Part shown: piece by piece, positions 53,867 to 60,345 of the stretch
Layout of the letters: each line of letters begins with the position of its first letter
Position numbering within the stretch: the first letter of the stretch is position 1
Source: Massilia litorea
GTDB taxonomy: Bacteria > Pseudomonadota > Gammaproteobacteria > Burkholderiales > Burkholderiaceae_D
NCBI RefSeq assembly: GCF_015101885.1
Contig: NZ_CP062941.1
Location: 2,790,001 to 2,854,000 of the forward strand
Length of the DNA: 64,000 bases
Reading direction: 5' to 3'
The notes under the pieces: model-generated
What the model was told of the DNA's origin: nothing
Databases searched by the model: none
The model's input: the letters and a program-made list of their open reading frames with translations, nothing else
Translations under genes and position numbers: made by a program

Positions 53867-53905
53867 CGCCGGCCTCGGAATAATCGGCCGGTTTCGCTCT
53901 GACCC

Positions 53906-53935
53906 GCAGGGTGGGCGGGTTTCCCGCCCACGCGG
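53906..53935 (+). repeat. GTAGGGTGGGC hairpin repeat
   Basis: GCAGGGTGGGCGGG, TTT, CCCGCCCACGCGG. The first base triplet is GCA instead of GTA. Confidence 0.85.
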
Positions 53936-53984
53936 TGATCGTTGGCAGCGAGATCATCCGGCGCGATAGCGGAGCCGTTATCGG

Positions 53985-54959
53985 TCACGGCACGATGACA
54001 ACCTTGCCCGTCACCTTGCGCTCGGCCATGTCGTTCAAAGCCTGCGCCGTCTCGCCAAGCGCATAACGCTTCGACACCAGCGGCTTCAATTTACCTTCCG
54101 CCATCCAGCCCAGCATCTCGCGCATCGCCGCCAGGTTCTTCTGCGGCTCGCGGCGCGCAAAATCTCCCCAGAACACGCCGACCACCGAGGCGCTTTTCAG
54201 CAGCATCAGGTTCCACGGCAGCTTCGGGATCTCGCCAGCCGCAAAGCCGATCACGAGATGGCGTCCCCGGTACGCGATCGAACGCAGGGCCGGCTCGCTG
54301 TACGGACCGCCGACCGGGTCGTAGATCACGTCCGGACCGCGGCCAGCGGTGGCCGCCTTGATTGCCTCGCGCAGGTCTTCCCTGGTGTAGTCGATCAGGA
54401 CGTCGGCGCCATGCTGGCGGCAGACTTCCAGCTTCTCCGCGCTGGACGCCGCCGCGATCACGCGTGCGCCGAGCGCCTTGCCGATCTCGATCGCCGCCAG
54501 TCCCACGCCGCCGGCCGCGCCCAGCACCAGCATCGTCTCGCCCGCCTTCAGCTGGCCGCGGTCGACCACCGCATGGTGCGAGGTGCCATAGGTGAGGGTG
54601 ATCGCGGCGGCGGTGTCGAAATCCATCCCGGGCGGCATCGGCATCAGGGCGGCTGCCGGTGCGATCGCCTGCTGGGCGAAGGCGCCGGTCTGGGTGAAGC
54701 CGATCACCTGGTCGCCGACGGCGACGTTGCTGACGCCCGCGCCGAGGGCGCGCACCACGCCGGCGAACTCATTGCCGGGCGTGAAGGGCAGGGGCGGCTT
54801 CACCTGGTATTTGCCCTGTACCGTCAGTACGTCGGGAAAGTTGACCCCGGCCGCGCGCACGTCGATGGCGACTTCGCCCGGGCCCGGCACCAGGTCGGGC
54901 AGGTCCTGCAGTTCGAGGCTGTCGGGCGGGCCCCAGGCCTTGCATACGATTGCTTTCAT
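53985..54959 (-). CDS. NADPH:quinone oxidoreductase-like MDR protein
   Basis: This is a 324-residue member of the zinc-free medium-chain dehydrogenase/reductases. It has an N-terminal GroES-like part with GEVAIDVRAAGVNFPD and PFTPGNEFAGVV. The nucleotide-binding domain reads LVLGAAGGVGLAAIEIGKALGARVIAAASS, with ALNDMAERKVTGKVVI at the end. The enzymes reduce quinones or alpha,beta-unsaturated compounds with NADPH. It is divergent from the TIR-domain gene, with 181 bases between the starts. Confidence 0.9.
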   Translation of the reverse strand: MKAIVCKAWGPPDSLELQDLPDLVPGPGEVAIDVRAAGVNFPDVLTVQGKYQVKPPLPFTPGNEFAGVVRALGAGVSNVAVGDQVIGFTQTGAFAQQAIAPAAALMPMPPGMDFDTAAAITLTYGTSHHAVVDRGQLKAGETMLVLGAAGGVGLAAIEIGKALGARVIAAASSAEKLEVCRQHGADVLIDYTREDLREAIKAATAGRGPDVIYDPVGGPYSEPALRSIAYRGRHLVIGFAAGEIPKLPWNLMLLKSASVVGVFWGDFARREPQKNLAAMREMLGWMAEGKLKPLVSKRYALGETAQALNDMAERKVTGKVVIVP

Positions 54960-55140
54960 GCTGTCTCCTCCTGTTGGTTATTGGTTATCCATTCAGTTGA
55001 TTATGCCTCAGGGAACGCTAACGCTGGCATTGACCCCGCGAGGCGGACGCGTTTGTGCGCCCGCAAAATGATGAGGGAACGCGGCGCTAGAGTGATGGAT
55101 GCGCATGCGGCCCAGCAGCGTCTTGACTGGAGGAATGGCA

Positions 55141-55749
55141 ATGGCGATACGGTACGGCTGTTTCTTCAGCTACGCCCACGGGCGACACGATTTGATGAAG
55201 CGCTTCAAGAGCGCGCTGGCCGACGCATTGCGCTGCTACCTCGAACCCTATTTCGACAATGAGGACGAGCTCTTCGTCGACACCGAGCAGCTCGGCGGCG
55301 GCGATGACCTCGACGGCAAGATCGCGCGCGCGATGTGCGAGAGCGTCTGCATGATCCTCATCTACACGCCGAAATACGAGGCGCACCCGTACACGCGGCG
55401 CGAATACGCGGCGATGCGCCAGATCGAGGCCGAGCGCAGCCAGTGGTACACGCTGCCCAGCCACCTGATCATTCCGGTCATCATGACCCAGCACCCGGAC
55501 CGGCTGCCGCCGCAGATCGCGTCCTCGACCTTCTATGTGGATTTTTCGCATTTCACGATGGCCACGGCCGACCTGAAATCGAACCCGGATTTTCTACCCG
55601 ATATCGGCAAGATGGTGAAGCGGATCGCCACCCACTACCAGTACCAGAAAATGACCATGCCCCCCGGGCATGACTGCAACCAATTCGTGCTCCCCGATGT
55701 CCCACCGGAGTGGCGTGCCGTCCCGGATCTCACCTTCCCCAAAAAATGA
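55141..55749 (+). CDS. TIR-domain protein, first gene of accessory operon
   Basis: This is a 202-residue protein. It starts with a TIR-type first strand (CFFSYAH, residues 7-13) and continues with LFVDTEQLGGGDDLDGKIARAM and MILIYTPKYEAHPYTRREYAAM. Glu88 in the RREY segment sits where TIR NAD-consuming enzymes carry their catalytic Glu. A C-terminal extension (residues about 150-202) is not part of the core TIR fold. It has GGAGG with 7 bases to this ATG; a nearer ATG six bases upstream would be too close. The next gene starts 7 bases after its stop. It probably cleaves NAD or signals with the downstream protein. No adjacent known defence gene marks it as Thoeris or CBASS. Confidence 0.82.
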   Translation: MAIRYGCFFSYAHGRHDLMKRFKSALADALRCYLEPYFDNEDELFVDTEQLGGGDDLDGKIARAMCESVCMILIYTPKYEAHPYTRREYAAMRQIEAERSQWYTLPSHLIIPVIMTQHPDRLPPQIASSTFYVDFSHFTMATADLKSNPDFLPDIGKMVKRIATHYQYQKMTMPPGHDCNQFVLPDVPPEWRAVPDLTFPKK

Positions 55750-55756
55750 GGAGCTC

Positions 55757-58426
55757 ATGGAAATCAACCGTTTGACGCTGCCGCCGATCGGCGGCCCCGG
55801 CGAAGTCACCACCTTCTATTCCTTCGAAAGCGGCGCCGCGCGCAGCATCGCACTGGCCGACAGCGCCGTGCTGCTGGCCGGACGCCAGAATGCGACCACC
55901 CCGGTCCTGATGATCGACTGGGACACCGAGGCGCCGGGCCTGCACCACCTGTTCCCGACCCGCGACGAGCGCTACGAACAGGCGCACGCCGACGAGGGCC
56001 GGGGCGTGGGCCGGGGCGTGGGACCAGGCGCGGGCGGGGGCGGCCCCAGCGGCCGGCACGGAGGCGCGCGCGGCGAGGCGGGACGCGCCGAGGCATCGCG
56101 GCCCGGCCTGGCGCGGCCCGGCCTGCTCGAATACTTCGAAGCCTGCCGCGAGCAGTTGAAAACGCTCGGACGGACAGGGGGCGACGACCACGAGGAACGC
56201 GCGCGCCTGGTGCTCGAGGCGATCGATTGGGAAGCCCATGTCGAACGCGTCGACCAGAGCCGCACCCTGTACCTGATGCGGGCCGGCTGCTTCGACGACA
56301 GCTTCGGCGAGCGCGCCGACCGCATGGACTGGGACGGCCTGTTCGCGGCCTGCCCGGCCTTGTTCCGCGCCTTCGCCGCGCACCTGACGCGCCACTTCCG
56401 CCACGTGCTGATCGACTGCCGCGGCGGGCGTTCGGCCGCGGTGAGCGTCTGCACCACGCTGCTGCCCGACCGCCTGGTCGGCCTGTTCACGCCGAACGGG
56501 CGCAGCCTCGAGGGCCTGGCCGGCGTCGTCACGCGCGCCATCGAGTACCGCTGCAGCCATGAAGAGGCCCAGCGTCCGCTACTGGTGTATCCGGTGCCCT
56601 GCGGCGTCGACGGCGTCGACGCCGAGCGCCGCCTGCTGTGGCGCCGCGGCGACCTGCACAAGGGCGTGGCCGGCTACCAGCCGCGTCTCGAACAGCTGCT
56701 GCGCAACTGCTACGGCATGGCGCAGGTCTCGCTCGACAGCTACCTCGACGAAGTCCAGCTGCACGGTGCGCTGGCCTGCGGCGCGGCCCTGCATGTCGGC
56801 GCGCTGCCCGAACGCGATGGCGACCGCCTGTCGCAGACGCGCGCGATCGAGGCGCTGCTCGGCTGGGCTGCGGCGGGGCGCTTTCCGTGGCAGTCGCGCC
56901 TCGAGATCGAGTTGCTCGACGCCGTCGAGGCGGCGCGCGCACGGTTGGCGGCGAACGAGCGCCGTGAGGATGCAGCGGGCCATGAGGGTCACGCCGGCGG
57001 GCATGCCGCCTTCGATCCGAACGCGGTGCTGCTGGCGCGCGAGCTGCTGCGCCTGGGCGAGCTGTACCTGCACGCAGGACGCCTGCCGGGCGCCTGCGAC
57101 TGCTTCGCCGAGAGCACCACGCTGCGCCAGCGCCTGCTGGGCGACGCGCATGCCGACACCCGCGCCAGCCGCGCGGCGCTGGCCGCCGCCCTGCGCGACA
57201 GCGGCCGGCTGCCCGAGGCGCGCCAGCAGTACGAGGCGCTGGTCGAGCACTGCGCCGGCGCGGCCGGGTTCGACGATCCGGAAACCCTGGCCGCGCGCTC
57301 GGGCCTGGCCGCGACGCTCGCGCGCCAGGAAGAATTCGGCGCCGCGCTCGGCCTGCACGATGCCGTCCTCGATGCCTGCGAACGCCTGTACGGCCCGGAC
57401 CAGATCGCCACCCTCGATGCCGTCGCTGCCCAGGCCCGGACACTGGCCCTGCAGGGCGAGTATTCGCGGGCGCGCATGCTCTACGAGCAGGTGCTCGAAG
57501 GACGCCAGCGCATGCTCGGCACCGAACATGAAGACACGCTGCGCTGCACCCAGCAGCTGGCCACGCTGCTGCGCGACATGGGCGACCTCGGCAACGCGCG
57601 CAAGCTGCAGGAGAGCGTGGTGCGCGTGCGCGAGCGCCAGGCCGGGATGGACGCCGCGGTCACCTTGCAGGCACGCGAGGCCCTGGCCGAGATCTTTGCC
57701 GCCCAGGGCGATCTCGGCGCGGTGCGCGACATGCAGCAGTCGCTTGCCGTGGCGCGCGAGCAGCGCCTCGGCTCCGAACATCCGGATACCCTGGGGGTGC
57801 TGCTGCGGCTGGCCTCGACCTTGAGCCAGCAGGGCGAGCTGGAAGAAGCGCGCCGCCTGCAGCAGCACGTGGTCAGCCTGCACGAACGCCTGCGCGGCAT
57901 GGACGACCACGAAACCCTGCGCAGCAAGCAGATGCTGGCCCAGACCCTGTCGAGCCAGGGGCACAGCGTCGCCGCGCGCCGGCTCGAGCAGAGCGTGGAG
58001 GAGGGCGGCAATCGCCTGCTGCAGCTGCGCGCGATGTCGGCAGGGGCCCATGACAGCCCGGCCGGCTTGCCGGGCGCGAGTTTGCCCGGCACCCGCGATC
58101 CGGGCGGCGGGCGGGCCCCGGACGGGCGCGCCAGCTCCGGCCCGGCGGGGCAGGAGCCGCTCGAACACAAGCTCGGGCAATTGCACAAGCTGGTCGAGGG
58201 AGGACGGGCACGCGAGGCGCGCCAGCTCGCCGACAGCCTGCGCGAAATCATCCTGCGGCCCTCGGTCGCCCAGCCGCTGCGGCGGCGCGGGGTGGCGCTG
58301 ATCAAGCAGGTGTACCAGGACGATAACGACAAGGATGCGCTGCTCGCCTTTGCCGAGGACGAGGTGGCCTCGCTCGAAGGCGCGCTGATCGAGGCCGCGG
58401 GCGGGCGGCCGCTGGCGATGCGCTGA
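55757..58426 (+). CDS. ParA-like (degenerate KGGVGR) TPR protein
   Basis: This is an 889-residue protein. Residues 15-63 resemble the opening of KGGVGR-type MinD/ParA ATPases: TFYSF, IALADSAVLLA and MIDWDTEAPGL. The P-loop itself reads ESGAARS (24-30) in place of KGGVGRT, losing the Lys and two Gly. The Walker B region HVLIDCRGGRSA (216-227) is kept. A Gly/Arg-rich linker spans about 80-115. About eight 42-residue TPRs of kinesin-light-chain type (LG-x-x-H-x-DTL pattern) run from 424 to 750. A charged C-terminal region of about 90 residues (800-889) is of unknown fold. The ribosome-binding site GAGGAG is ideal. TPRs suggest ligand or partner recognition, and pairing with the TIR gene suggests a signalling or defence unit. 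Confidence 0.82.
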   Translation: MEINRLTLPPIGGPGEVTTFYSFESGAARSIALADSAVLLAGRQNATTPVLMIDWDTEAPGLHHLFPTRDERYEQAHADEGRGVGRGVGPGAGGGGPSGRHGGARGEAGRAEASRPGLARPGLLEYFEACREQLKTLGRTGGDDHEERARLVLEAIDWEAHVERVDQSRTLYLMRAGCFDDSFGERADRMDWDGLFAACPALFRAFAAHLTRHFRHVLIDCRGGRSAAVSVCTTLLPDRLVGLFTPNGRSLEGLAGVVTRAIEYRCSHEEAQRPLLVYPVPCGVDGVDAERRLLWRRGDLHKGVAGYQPRLEQLLRNCYGMAQVSLDSYLDEVQLHGALACGAALHVGALPERDGDRLSQTRAIEALLGWAAAGRFPWQSRLEIELLDAVEAARARLAANERREDAAGHEGHAGGHAAFDPNAVLLARELLRLGELYLHAGRLPGACDCFAESTTLRQRLLGDAHADTRASRAALAAALRDSGRLPEARQQYEALVEHCAGAAGFDDPETLAARSGLAATLARQEEFGAALGLHDAVLDACERLYGPDQIATLDAVAAQARTLALQGEYSRARMLYEQVLEGRQRMLGTEHEDTLRCTQQLATLLRDMGDLGNARKLQESVVRVRERQAGMDAAVTLQAREALAEIFAAQGDLGAVRDMQQSLAVAREQRLGSEHPDTLGVLLRLASTLSQQGELEEARRLQQHVVSLHERLRGMDDHETLRSKQMLAQTLSSQGHSVAARRLEQSVEEGGNRLLQLRAMSAGAHDSPAGLPGASLPGTRDPGGGRAPDGRASSGPAGQEPLEHKLGQLHKLVEGGRAREARQLADSLREIILRPSVAQPLRRRGVALIKQVYQDDNDKDALLAFAEDEVASLEGALIEAAGGRPLAMR

Positions 58427-58442
58427 CGTGTGTGCCGACAGG

Positions 58443-58668
58443 TATAAAATTGAAAATAGCGCGGCATGGCGTACTTACAACGCAATGCCGCTACGCCAGT
58501 AATAAAATGAAAACCGCGGGGCGTGCGTAGTTCCAGAGCAACGCCGCTACGCCGTAATAAAAATGAAAACCGCGGGGCGTAGCGTAGTTGCAGTGCAACG
58601 CCGCTACGCCGTAATAAAAATGAAAACCGCGGGGCGTAGCGTAGTTGCAGTGCAACGCCGCTACGCCC
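58443..58668. repeat. four tandem 55-57-base hairpin repeats
   Basis: Units begin at 58443, 58500, 58555 and 58612, the first more diverged. Each reads TAATAAAA(A)TGAAAACCGCGGGGCGTAGCG or close to it, then a GTTGC-AGT-GCAAC inner stem and CGCTACGCC. GGCGTAGCG pairs with CGCTACGCC (9 bp), and in the last unit the stem extends to 12 bp. The array starts 17 bases after the TIR-operon stop and ends 65 bases before surE. The intervening 58669-58732 holds no gene and should contain the surE promoter. Confidence 0.9.
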
Positions 58669-58732
58669 CGCAGCCCAGAATTTATCTGCCCCGGATGCGT
58701 GTTCAAAGCGTTGCTTCAGGTAAAATCGCTGG

Positions 58733-59470
58733 ATGCGAATTCTTATCAGTAACGACGACGGCTATCTCGCCCCTGGTATCAACGCCCTGGCGGAAGCCCT
58801 GGCGAGCATCGCCGAAATCATCGTGGTCGCGCCCGACAGCAACCGCTCGGGCGCGTCGAACTCGCTGTCGCTCGACCGTCCGCTGACGGTGACCCGTGCC
58901 GCCAATGGTTTCTATTTTGTCAACGGCACGCCCACCGACTGCGTCCACATCGCGCTGACCGGCATGGGCGACGCCTTGCCCGACCTGGTCGTCTCCGGCA
59001 TCAACAATGGCCAGAACATGGGCGACGACACCCTGTATTCGGGCACCGTCGCCGCCGCCACCGAAGCCTATCTGTTCGGGATCCCGGCGATCGCCTTTTC
59101 CCAAGTCCACCACGGCTGGGAACATCTCGATTCGGCCGCGCGCGTTGCGCGCGATGTGGTGCTGCGCAAGTTCGACATGCTGCCGTCGCCGTTCCTGCTG
59201 AATGTAAATATCCCGAACCTGCCCTACGAGGCGCTCGGCCCGCTCACCCCGACCCGCCTCGGGCGCCGCCACCAGGCCGAGCCCGTGATCCGCTCGCAGG
59301 ATCCGCGCGGACGCGAGATCTTCTGGATCGGGGCGCCAGGCGCCTGCCGCGATGCGGGCGAGGGCACGGATTTCCACGCCACGTCGACCGGCCTGGTCTC
59401 GGTCACGCCGCTCCAGATCGACCTGACGCACCAATCCCAGCTCGCCTTGCTGAAACAGGGACTCGCATGA
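58733..59470 (+). CDS. surE: 5'/3'-nucleotidase SurE
   Basis: This 245-residue metal-dependent phosphatase removes phosphate from nucleoside monophosphates. The metal site is [15 protein letters not shown] at the N-terminus (Asp8, Asp9) with Ser and Asn in [14 protein letters not shown] and in [13 protein letters not shown]. It opens the stationary-phase run surE-pcm-nlpD-rpoS, an order conserved in proteobacteria. The pcm start overlaps its stop (ATGA). Confidence 0.96.
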
Positions 59471-60345
59471 ACGACCGCAGCAAAACCACGGGAGGCAGCA
59501 CCTTTCCCTTGCCGCTGTCCTCGGTGACGGGCGGCGGCGCGCGCAAGCCGACGACGCCGGCGCCGGTGGCCACGCCCCAGACCGCGACCCAGAATGCGGC
59601 GCGCGCCGTCGGCGGCGCGCCGCTGCCGAAGGCGCCGCAACCGGGCCCGAAGCTGCCCGGTTATGCGCCGCCGGCTACCCGGAGCGCGCCCACCGCCCAG
59701 CGCTCGGACCTGATGGCCACCGAAGCGCTCCGCCGCGCCATGGTGGCGCGGGTCGCCGGGCAGGGCGTGCGCGACCAGCAGGTGCTGGCTGCCCTGGAGG
59801 CCGTGCCGCGCCACCTGTTCATCGAGCCGGCGCTCTCCAGCCAGGCGTATATCGACGCCTCGCTGCCGATCGGCCACCACCAGACGATTTCCCAGCCGTA
59901 TATCGTGGCGCGCATGATCGAAGCCATGCGCGACGGTAAACAAATGAACCGCGTCCTCGAGATCGGCACCGGCTGCGGCTACCAGGCGGCGGTGCTGGCG
60001 CGGGTCGCCGGCGAGGTGTATTCGATCGAGCGCATCAAGCCTTTGCACGAGCTCGCCAAGGCCAATTTGCGCACCCTGCGCCTGTCCAATCTGCGCTTGC
60101 ACTACGGAGATGGTATGCTCGGGCTCGCGCAAGTTGCGCCATTCGACGGTATCATCCTCGCCGCGGCCGGGATGGAAGTACCGCGCGCCCTGCTCGAACA
60201 GCTCGCCATCGGCGCGCGCCTGGTGGCCCCGGTCGGCGGCCAGGTTCAACACCTGCAGCGGATCACCCGTACCGGCAAGTCGGAGTGGACCAGCGAAACC
60301 CTGGAAGCCTGCCATTTCGTGCCGCTTCGCCCGGGCACCGCTTGA
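59467..60345 (+). CDS. pcm: protein-L-isoaspartate O-methyltransferase
   Basis: This 292-residue enzyme methylates isoaspartyl residues in damaged proteins using S-adenosylmethionine. The methyltransferase domain begins near residue 78, with [17 protein letters not shown] and the SAM-binding [16 protein letters not shown]. The first 75 residues form a Pro/Ala-rich extension not present in the common enzyme of about 210 residues. The start is fixed by the overlap with surE. It repairs aged proteins in stationary phase. Confidence 0.94.

Follow-up and report, generated by a model that had tools for sequence, protein, structure and literature searches.

A near-core TIR and ParA/MinD-like TPR gene pair upstream of surE-rpoS in Massilia, Duganella and Janthinobacterium: a candidate domesticated signalling module

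A window of 64,000 nucleotides from Massilia litorea (contig NZ_CP062941.1, positions 2,790,001 to 2,854,000) carries, upstream of surE, a TIR gene and directly behind it a partner gene for a degenerate ParA/MinD-like domain followed by tetratricopeptide repeats (TPRs). The pair is near-universal in the window's genus and two sister genera and keeps its place in the gene order, its TIR protein is constrained like housekeeping proteins, and one branch has lost the lysine of the partner's ATP site. With intermediate confidence we regard the pair as a conflict-type TIR/ParA-like NTPase-TPR module that became a fixed core signalling pair, inherited vertically, in the Massilia-Duganella-Janthinobacterium clade. 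The turn from an immunity-style module to a lasting signalling pair is read from the near-universal retention at the same site together with the loss of the ATP lysine in one branch.

The TIR gene was found in 56/61 genomes of the window's genus (own genome counted) and in 36/40 and 74/74 genomes of the sister genera, two of the four misses being genomes less than 90% complete. The genera labelled g46 and g80 are putatively Janthinobacterium-like and Duganella-like, respectively. The TIR gene was absent from 40 other genera sampled alongside the window's genus. A profile search over 294 genomes of the family matched 96 genomes from 5/44 genera, and a search of 274 genomes at class level returned the own genome only, plus one marginal match (E 0.009) among the 273 others. 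Within its own genome the window TIR has a single match, and tblastn of the TIR against plasmid and phage collections gave none. One homologue search covered the best 80 of 134 loci, and two protein searches covered the best 120 proteins. The search through TIR yielded 103 loci, so that partner-only loci are under-sampled. After exclusion of L064 (early stop) and L230, 84 loci carried all seven genes considered, and removal of the duplicate L215 left 83. These loci were selected for carrying the seven genes, and 83/83 have them on one strand in the identical order dinG-TIR-partner-surE-pcm-nlpD-rpoS; the spacer between TIR and partner measures 7-21 nt in 82/83. The partner was seen in 100/103 loci; two of the exceptions (L067, L068) are contig ends. 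The preliminary description had taken the pair for an accessory gene set inserted between qor and the surE block. This accessory-island idea is ruled out by the near-core, syntenic and vertical occurrence, and neither the patchy distribution nor the mobile or defence-island context of mobile defence genes was found.

The partner has a ParA/MinD-like fold of the SIMIBI type, with ParA, MinD and McdA as fold matches of the N-domain, and the window protein contains many TPRs according to Pfam/NCBIfam. The operon of a TIR gene closely coupled to a KGGVGR-like/TPR gene, as proposed beforehand, is supported. Against the KGGVGR-motif variant ATPase model NF047398 the window partner scores 67.9 bits, below the cut-off of 90, and its P-loop position (residues 24-30) reads ESGAARS in place of KGGxGR; it therefore falls outside this family, and the altered ATP site claimed earlier is borne out. 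Asp54 and Walker-B Asp220 are retained, and residues 86-116 form a low-confidence insert in the ParA/MinD-like domain. Among the 83 loci the signature lysine position is occupied by K in 35 and by E in another 35, with D at 11 loci and R and Q at one locus each, so that the motif is intact in 35/83 and the lysine lost in 48/83. All 46 Massilia-type rows carry E or D, and the sister genera mostly retain KGGxGR. Arg at motif position 6 (Arg29) and Asp54 are invariant (83/83), and Asp220 is changed to Ala in 11 loci forming one Massilia subclade. On the housekeeping tree the lysine state changes three times, in the Massilia-type clade with L229, in the metagenome-assembled genome L108 and in L221. 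These changes probably represent losses, since KGGVGR proteins elsewhere carry the lysine. The isolate Root351 (L101), named Massilia, groups with Pseudoduganella and retains the lysine.

The remainder of the partner is hypervariable. Its length is 402-950 aa across the 83 loci; L222 and L223, where only AAA/ParA matches were obtained, have partners of 350 aa. Duganella-type, Janthinobacterium-type and window partners have 3-7 TPR stretches. Eleven Massilia-type partners are short, and a check of five of them (L041, L059, L062, L063, L066) at E 0.01 detected no Pfam family. TPRs are thus undetectable in two lineages which still carry the TIR gene, and since these lineages keep the pair, the TPR array seems dispensable for its retention. 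The suggestion that the TPRs recognise a trigger is weakened by this, at least as a necessary step. In L064 (8615-8812) the partner frame ends after 66 aa at an early stop, with the TIR gene intact.

The TIR and the partner N-domain show pairwise protein distances that track those of surE, dinG, rpoS and pcm (Mantel 0.80, 0.82), and 0/999 permutations were as high. The 46 Massilia-type rows are united in a single clade (support 98.7) of the TIR tree, which like the other trees was built by a quick method. In the housekeeping tree Massilia sp. Mn16-1_5 is the nearest named relative of the window. Relative rates, given as the slope against the housekeeping mean, were 0.76 for rpoS, 0.90 for dinG, 0.99 for surE, 1.34 for TIR and 1.36 for pcm, followed by nlpD (1.70), the partner N-domain (2.14) and the partner C-terminal part (2.85). 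The residues after 330, which include the TPR superhelix, are the fastest-evolving part compared. Median dN/dS values (Nei-Gojobori) of the lysine-lost versus the lysine-intact group, which are rough since dS was high (0.4-1.2), were 0.133 vs 0.078 for TIR, 0.161 vs 0.170 for surE, 0.198 vs 0.121 for dinG, 0.186 vs 0.116 for rpoS, 0.251 vs 0.183 for pcm, 0.322 vs 0.233 for nlpD, 0.478 vs 0.205 for partner N and 0.598 vs 0.533 for partner C. The TIR protein is constrained like the housekeeping genes, and its rise in the lysine-lost group is comparable to that of dinG or rpoS. Most genes rise 1.4-1.7-fold in this group and the partner N-domain 2.3-fold, so that only a part of its rise is specific.

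These data also bear on the view that the pair is a remnant on its way out of the Massilia-type clade, where it would no longer have a function. Loss of the P-loop, of Walker B and of TPRs and the faster partner N-domain would fit such decay, as would the early stop in L064. Furthermore, of the five TIR-less genomes in the window's genus, four lack both genes at the site and the fifth retains just a remnant that matches partner residues 551-662; on the tree the whole-pair losses are two separate events, both beside Walker-B-less rows (nearest L051 and L039; L074 and L069). Nevertheless, the strong constraint on the TIR in the lysine-less clade, a partner N-domain dN/dS still below 1 and the invariance of Arg29 and Asp54 make this explanation very improbable.

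The window TIR belongs to TIR_2 (PF13676) with 43.3 bits, above the curated cut-off of 28, and its predicted TIR fold comes closest to SPARTA and further NADase TIRs. A PDB sequence search with the single TIR gave six matches, none of them a TIR. Glu88 aligns without gaps with the glutamate of BtTir and TcpB, at weak E-values (0.37, 0.59), and thereby occupies the WCxxE-type position, whose glutamate we take to be the catalytic residue of NAD-cleaving TIRs. By this alignment the glutamate of enzymatic TIRs appears to be in place, in line with the enzymatic type of TIR assumed initially. It is kept in 83/83 loci, as are many other TIR positions.

The predicted TIR structure is also similar to that of MyD88 and other non-enzymatic filament TIRs, and the nearest fold matches of the TPR superhelix are the scaffolds LGN and kinesin light chain. 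Together with the ParA/MinD/McdA fold this is consistent with a structural pair, in which a TIR adaptor and a ParA/MinD-like protein would position or scaffold an envelope, division or chemosensory cluster. Such a role is distinctly unlikely in our view. The glutamate at the NADase position is invariant, an argument tempered by the many other invariant TIR positions, and the lysine missing from more than half of the loci is the ATP-binding residue on which ParA-type positioning depends.

For the favoured signalling pair the following course of events is conceivable. The TIR protein would be the output, with Glu88 serving to cleave or cyclise NAD or a related nucleotide. The partner may bind the TIR protein and restrain or assemble it via its ParA/MinD-like domain, which could switch by ATP-dependent dimerisation in the Duganella- and Janthinobacterium-type proteins. 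Further ligand or client contacts may come from the variable TPR tail, which would nevertheless be dispensable. The Massilia-type clade would have lost the ATP step and been left with a pseudo-ATPase scaffold, subject to further decay in one subclade. A role in stationary-phase or population-density signalling is suggested by the location upstream of surE-rpoS and by a possible quorum-sensing link in strain HH01. Somewhat tentatively, we extend this to an immunity-type TIR/ParA switch that was domesticated for stationary-phase or quorum-linked NAD signalling, with the switch turned into a pseudo-ATPase scaffold in Massilia and the TIR under housekeeping-like constraint.

A lead towards quorum sensing comes from Janthinobacterium HH01. 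According to the accessible parts of a 2016 study (PMC5080296), Jab_2c19720, a 'TIR domain containing protein', is core except in strain Marseille, is lowered in a quorum-sensing synthase mutant (log-fold -2.29) and has a JAI-1 motif. A search for further papers with tags that begin with Jab_2c197 found none. A recurring element related to the JAI-1 motif, ATTATGCCT, was not used because in our reading it resembles a -10 box belonging to the promoter of the divergent qor gene.

The literature searches made revealed no paper describing this gene pair, and the accessible parts of PMC8195603 and PMC8565338 contain nothing on it. Among known systems the actinobacterial FxSxx-COOH systems are similar in combining a TIR-like protein (FxsC, NF040588) with a TPR protein (FxsT, NF040586) and MinD/ParA-like components; excerpts of Kaur et al. 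(2020; PMC7159879) describe TIR/AP-ATPase-TPR proteins and inactive MinD/ParA-like domains in FxSxx peptide systems. The best scores were far below the curated cut-offs (FxsC 39.5/130, FxsT 137.6/300, FxsB at best 39.9/370 in the own genome), no such gene occurs among the eight neighbours, and the pair here is chromosomal and near-core in Oxalobacteraceae; identity with FxSxx-COOH was dismissed. Thoeris (ThsB TIR plus ThsA) likewise consists of two genes, one of them a TIR gene. It was dismissed too, as no ThsA-type gene lies among the eight neighbours and the TIR reaches only 11.1 bits against the PADLOC ThsB model. MoxR AAA+ or vWA genes, expected for the VMAP/ternary conflict systems as described in the accessible parts of PMC7159879, are also missing from these neighbours. 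The TIR NADase effectors (SPARTA TIR-APAZ, BtTir, AbTir, TcpB, SARM1, RUN1) share the fold and the aligned glutamate. Unlike in these effectors, no Argonaute, STAND or LRR part is attached, and control is presumably exerted by a separate protein of the ParA-like/TPR type. Related to the partner are the KGGVGR ATPases (NF047398), including PDC-M28B of the three-gene phage-defence candidate PDC-M28, which have a homologous N-terminal domain and often TPR tails. The PDC-M28B profile matched the window partner with 25.1 bits and a Duganella partner with 60.6 bits. In contrast to these relatives, the companion gene here encodes a TIR, the P-loop lysine is lost in the Massilia-type clade, and the neighbours named by Pfam scan (not PADLOC) are ordinary chromosomal genes.

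The pairing of TIR with a KGGTGR/KGGVGR ATPase recurs, with three independent links outside the clade. On the Rhizobium beringeri plasmid pRlX4 a TIR gene (419 aa) overlaps the gene of a KGGTGR ATPase (761 aa) with an FGE-sulfatase tail. The ATPase domains of this protein and the Duganella partner are 34% identical over 315 alignment columns, and the TIRs show a remote likeness (24% over 101). In genome G437 (L237, 1247-6335, minus strand) overlapping genes encode a TIR-containing protein of 399 aa, a protein of 217 aa and a KGGTGR ATPase of 1082 aa, and in Sinorhizobium chiapasense a KGGVGR ATPase and a TIR (TIR_2 56.9 bits, residues 324-445) are parts of one protein. The co-occurrence proposed in the preliminary description accordingly stands for unrelated TIR genes, which overlap, lie one gene apart from or are fused to such an ATPase, and does not extend to the close TIR subfamily, which is limited to 5/44 genera of the family apart from the one marginal match at class level. 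The system idea survives in weakened form because unrelated TIR genes adjoin KGGTGR ATPases elsewhere. The surroundings of the pRlX4 pair (L191, 478-9366) include another TIR gene (TIR_2 32.5 bits), a SLOG-cluster gene (99.7 bits) and a gene for a 911-aa WD40 protein. In the 1082-aa protein of G437 the initial KGGTGR part is followed, as judged by eye, by another P-loop NTPase and a tail of FGE-like type.

The main rival is an anti-phage function of the abortive-infection type, in which the partner senses infection and frees the TIR NADase, the pair having become fixed in the clade by chance. The modelled likeness to SPARTA-type TIRs, the partial PDC-M28B match, the fast-evolving TPR tail, the conjugative plasmid bearing the Rhizobium pair with its second TIR and SLOG-cluster neighbours, and the MinD/ParA-like domains in conflict systems, as far as the accessible parts of PMC7159879 report them, all point in this direction. 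The near-universal, syntenic and vertical occurrence without matches in plasmid or phage collections, a TIR constraint equal to that of surE and the absence of any defence family among the eight Pfam-scanned neighbours speak against it, and we consider an anti-phage function rather unlikely, if less so than the other rivals. The lack of Thoeris, CBASS and retron components noted earlier likewise holds for these neighbours.

Several findings weigh against the signalling reading itself. In L212 (g46 genome G327) the TIR gene lies immediately upstream of surE and the partner is truly missing. Of all genes compared, the TIR has the weakest rank correlation with housekeeping distances (0.66, against 0.79 for nlpD and 0.77 for the partner N-domain), and the roughness of the dN/dS values and the partial specificity of the partner N rise have to be added. 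Most KGGVGR relatives examined pair with other genes, namely MqsA-like (on a Massilia forsythiae plasmid, in Rhizobium phaseoli, R. gallicum and four loci of another family), caspase-region (a Pseudanabaena plasmid region with a caspase gene) or PDC-M28 genes. Among over-cut-off KGGVGR places in 37 genomes, positions being compared by eye, one TIR lies within 2 kb outside the clade (G437:C92), the next nearest being about 7 kb away. The R. beringeri-type ATPase occurs at 4 loci in 247 genomes of another family, putatively Rhizobiaceae, all beside an MqsA-like gene and none beside TIR. Jab_2c19720 fits a near-core TIR of the clade and is only a putative counterpart of the TIR gene, and the JAI-1 motif (TTGAN6/7TCAA) was rejected as a conserved element of the TIR promoter, as it was present in 3/103 upstream regions (0.5 expected by shuffling).

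Bacterial TIR genes have become known mainly as defence effectors of patchy and mobile occurrence. A syntenic near-core TIR with the enzymatic glutamate and with lysine-bearing and lysine-less forms of its presumed controller in close relatives makes domestication testable, and the same contrast makes testable whether an NTPase step is needed for restraining a TIR enzyme. If the more tentative reading of a domesticated switch is true, the Massilia branch would be a natural before-and-after experiment on the NTPase threshold controlling a TIR enzyme. In addition, a lead is obtained to the function of a gene pair that has received little study in Massilia, Duganella and Janthinobacterium.

Positions in the window are listed in Table 1.

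Table 1 Features of the TIR/partner locus in the window
Feature	Position	Strand	Remarks
TIR gene	55141..55749	+	202 aa (TIR_2); putative catalytic Glu88 within motif TRRE
Partner gene	55757..58426	+	889 aa; degenerate ParA/MinD-like (KGGVGR-type) domain and TPR array
Degenerate SIMIBI (ParA/MinD) domain of partner	55757..56881	+	residues ~1-375
TPR superhelix of partner	57017..58030	+	residues ~421-758
Ribosome-binding site of TIR gene	55129..55134	+	GGAGGA; read from sequence
TIR/partner spacer	55750..55756	+	7 nt; carries GGAG of partner
surE	58733..59470	+	downstream; first gene of conserved block surE-pcm-nlpD-rpoS
qor-type quinone oxidoreductase gene	53985..54959	-	divergent neighbour; present in 58/83 loci

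The eight neighbours identified by Pfam scan are PP2C, DUF465, dinG, qor, surE, pcm, nlpD and rpoS. An Rfam search over 53900-59500 gave nothing at gathering scores. One promoter-like site was found on the plus strand (0.5 expected) and four terminator-like sites (1.6 expected), all on the minus strand within the TIR gene.

Some other arrangements of KGGVGR ATPases were observed. A conserved operon of an MqsA-like gene and a KGGVGR ATPase of ~620 aa (L173, 1915-4730; L192, L193, L233-L236) is located on the Massilia forsythiae plasmid, on Rhizobium plasmids and in further loci. In L173, L235 and L236 it is preceded by a gene of 120-158 aa, alike by eye, and is possibly a three-gene toxin-antitoxin-like system. 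KGGVGRS ATPases of ~430-480 aa (915 in L165) occur in environmental genomes (L160-L172, L174-L176), 8/16 of them with both a ~125-173-aa and a ~470-515-aa neighbour; L160 matches a complete PDC-M28 by its scores (A 169.6, B 596.8, C 672.3 bits). Between partner and surE, Massilia sp. ZL223 (L058, 11278-13389) has a reverse-strand open reading frame of 703 aa. At the same place in the window (58444-58694) a palindromic unit is present in four tandem copies with 56-57 nt spacing, and its matches in the own genome are confined to that site.

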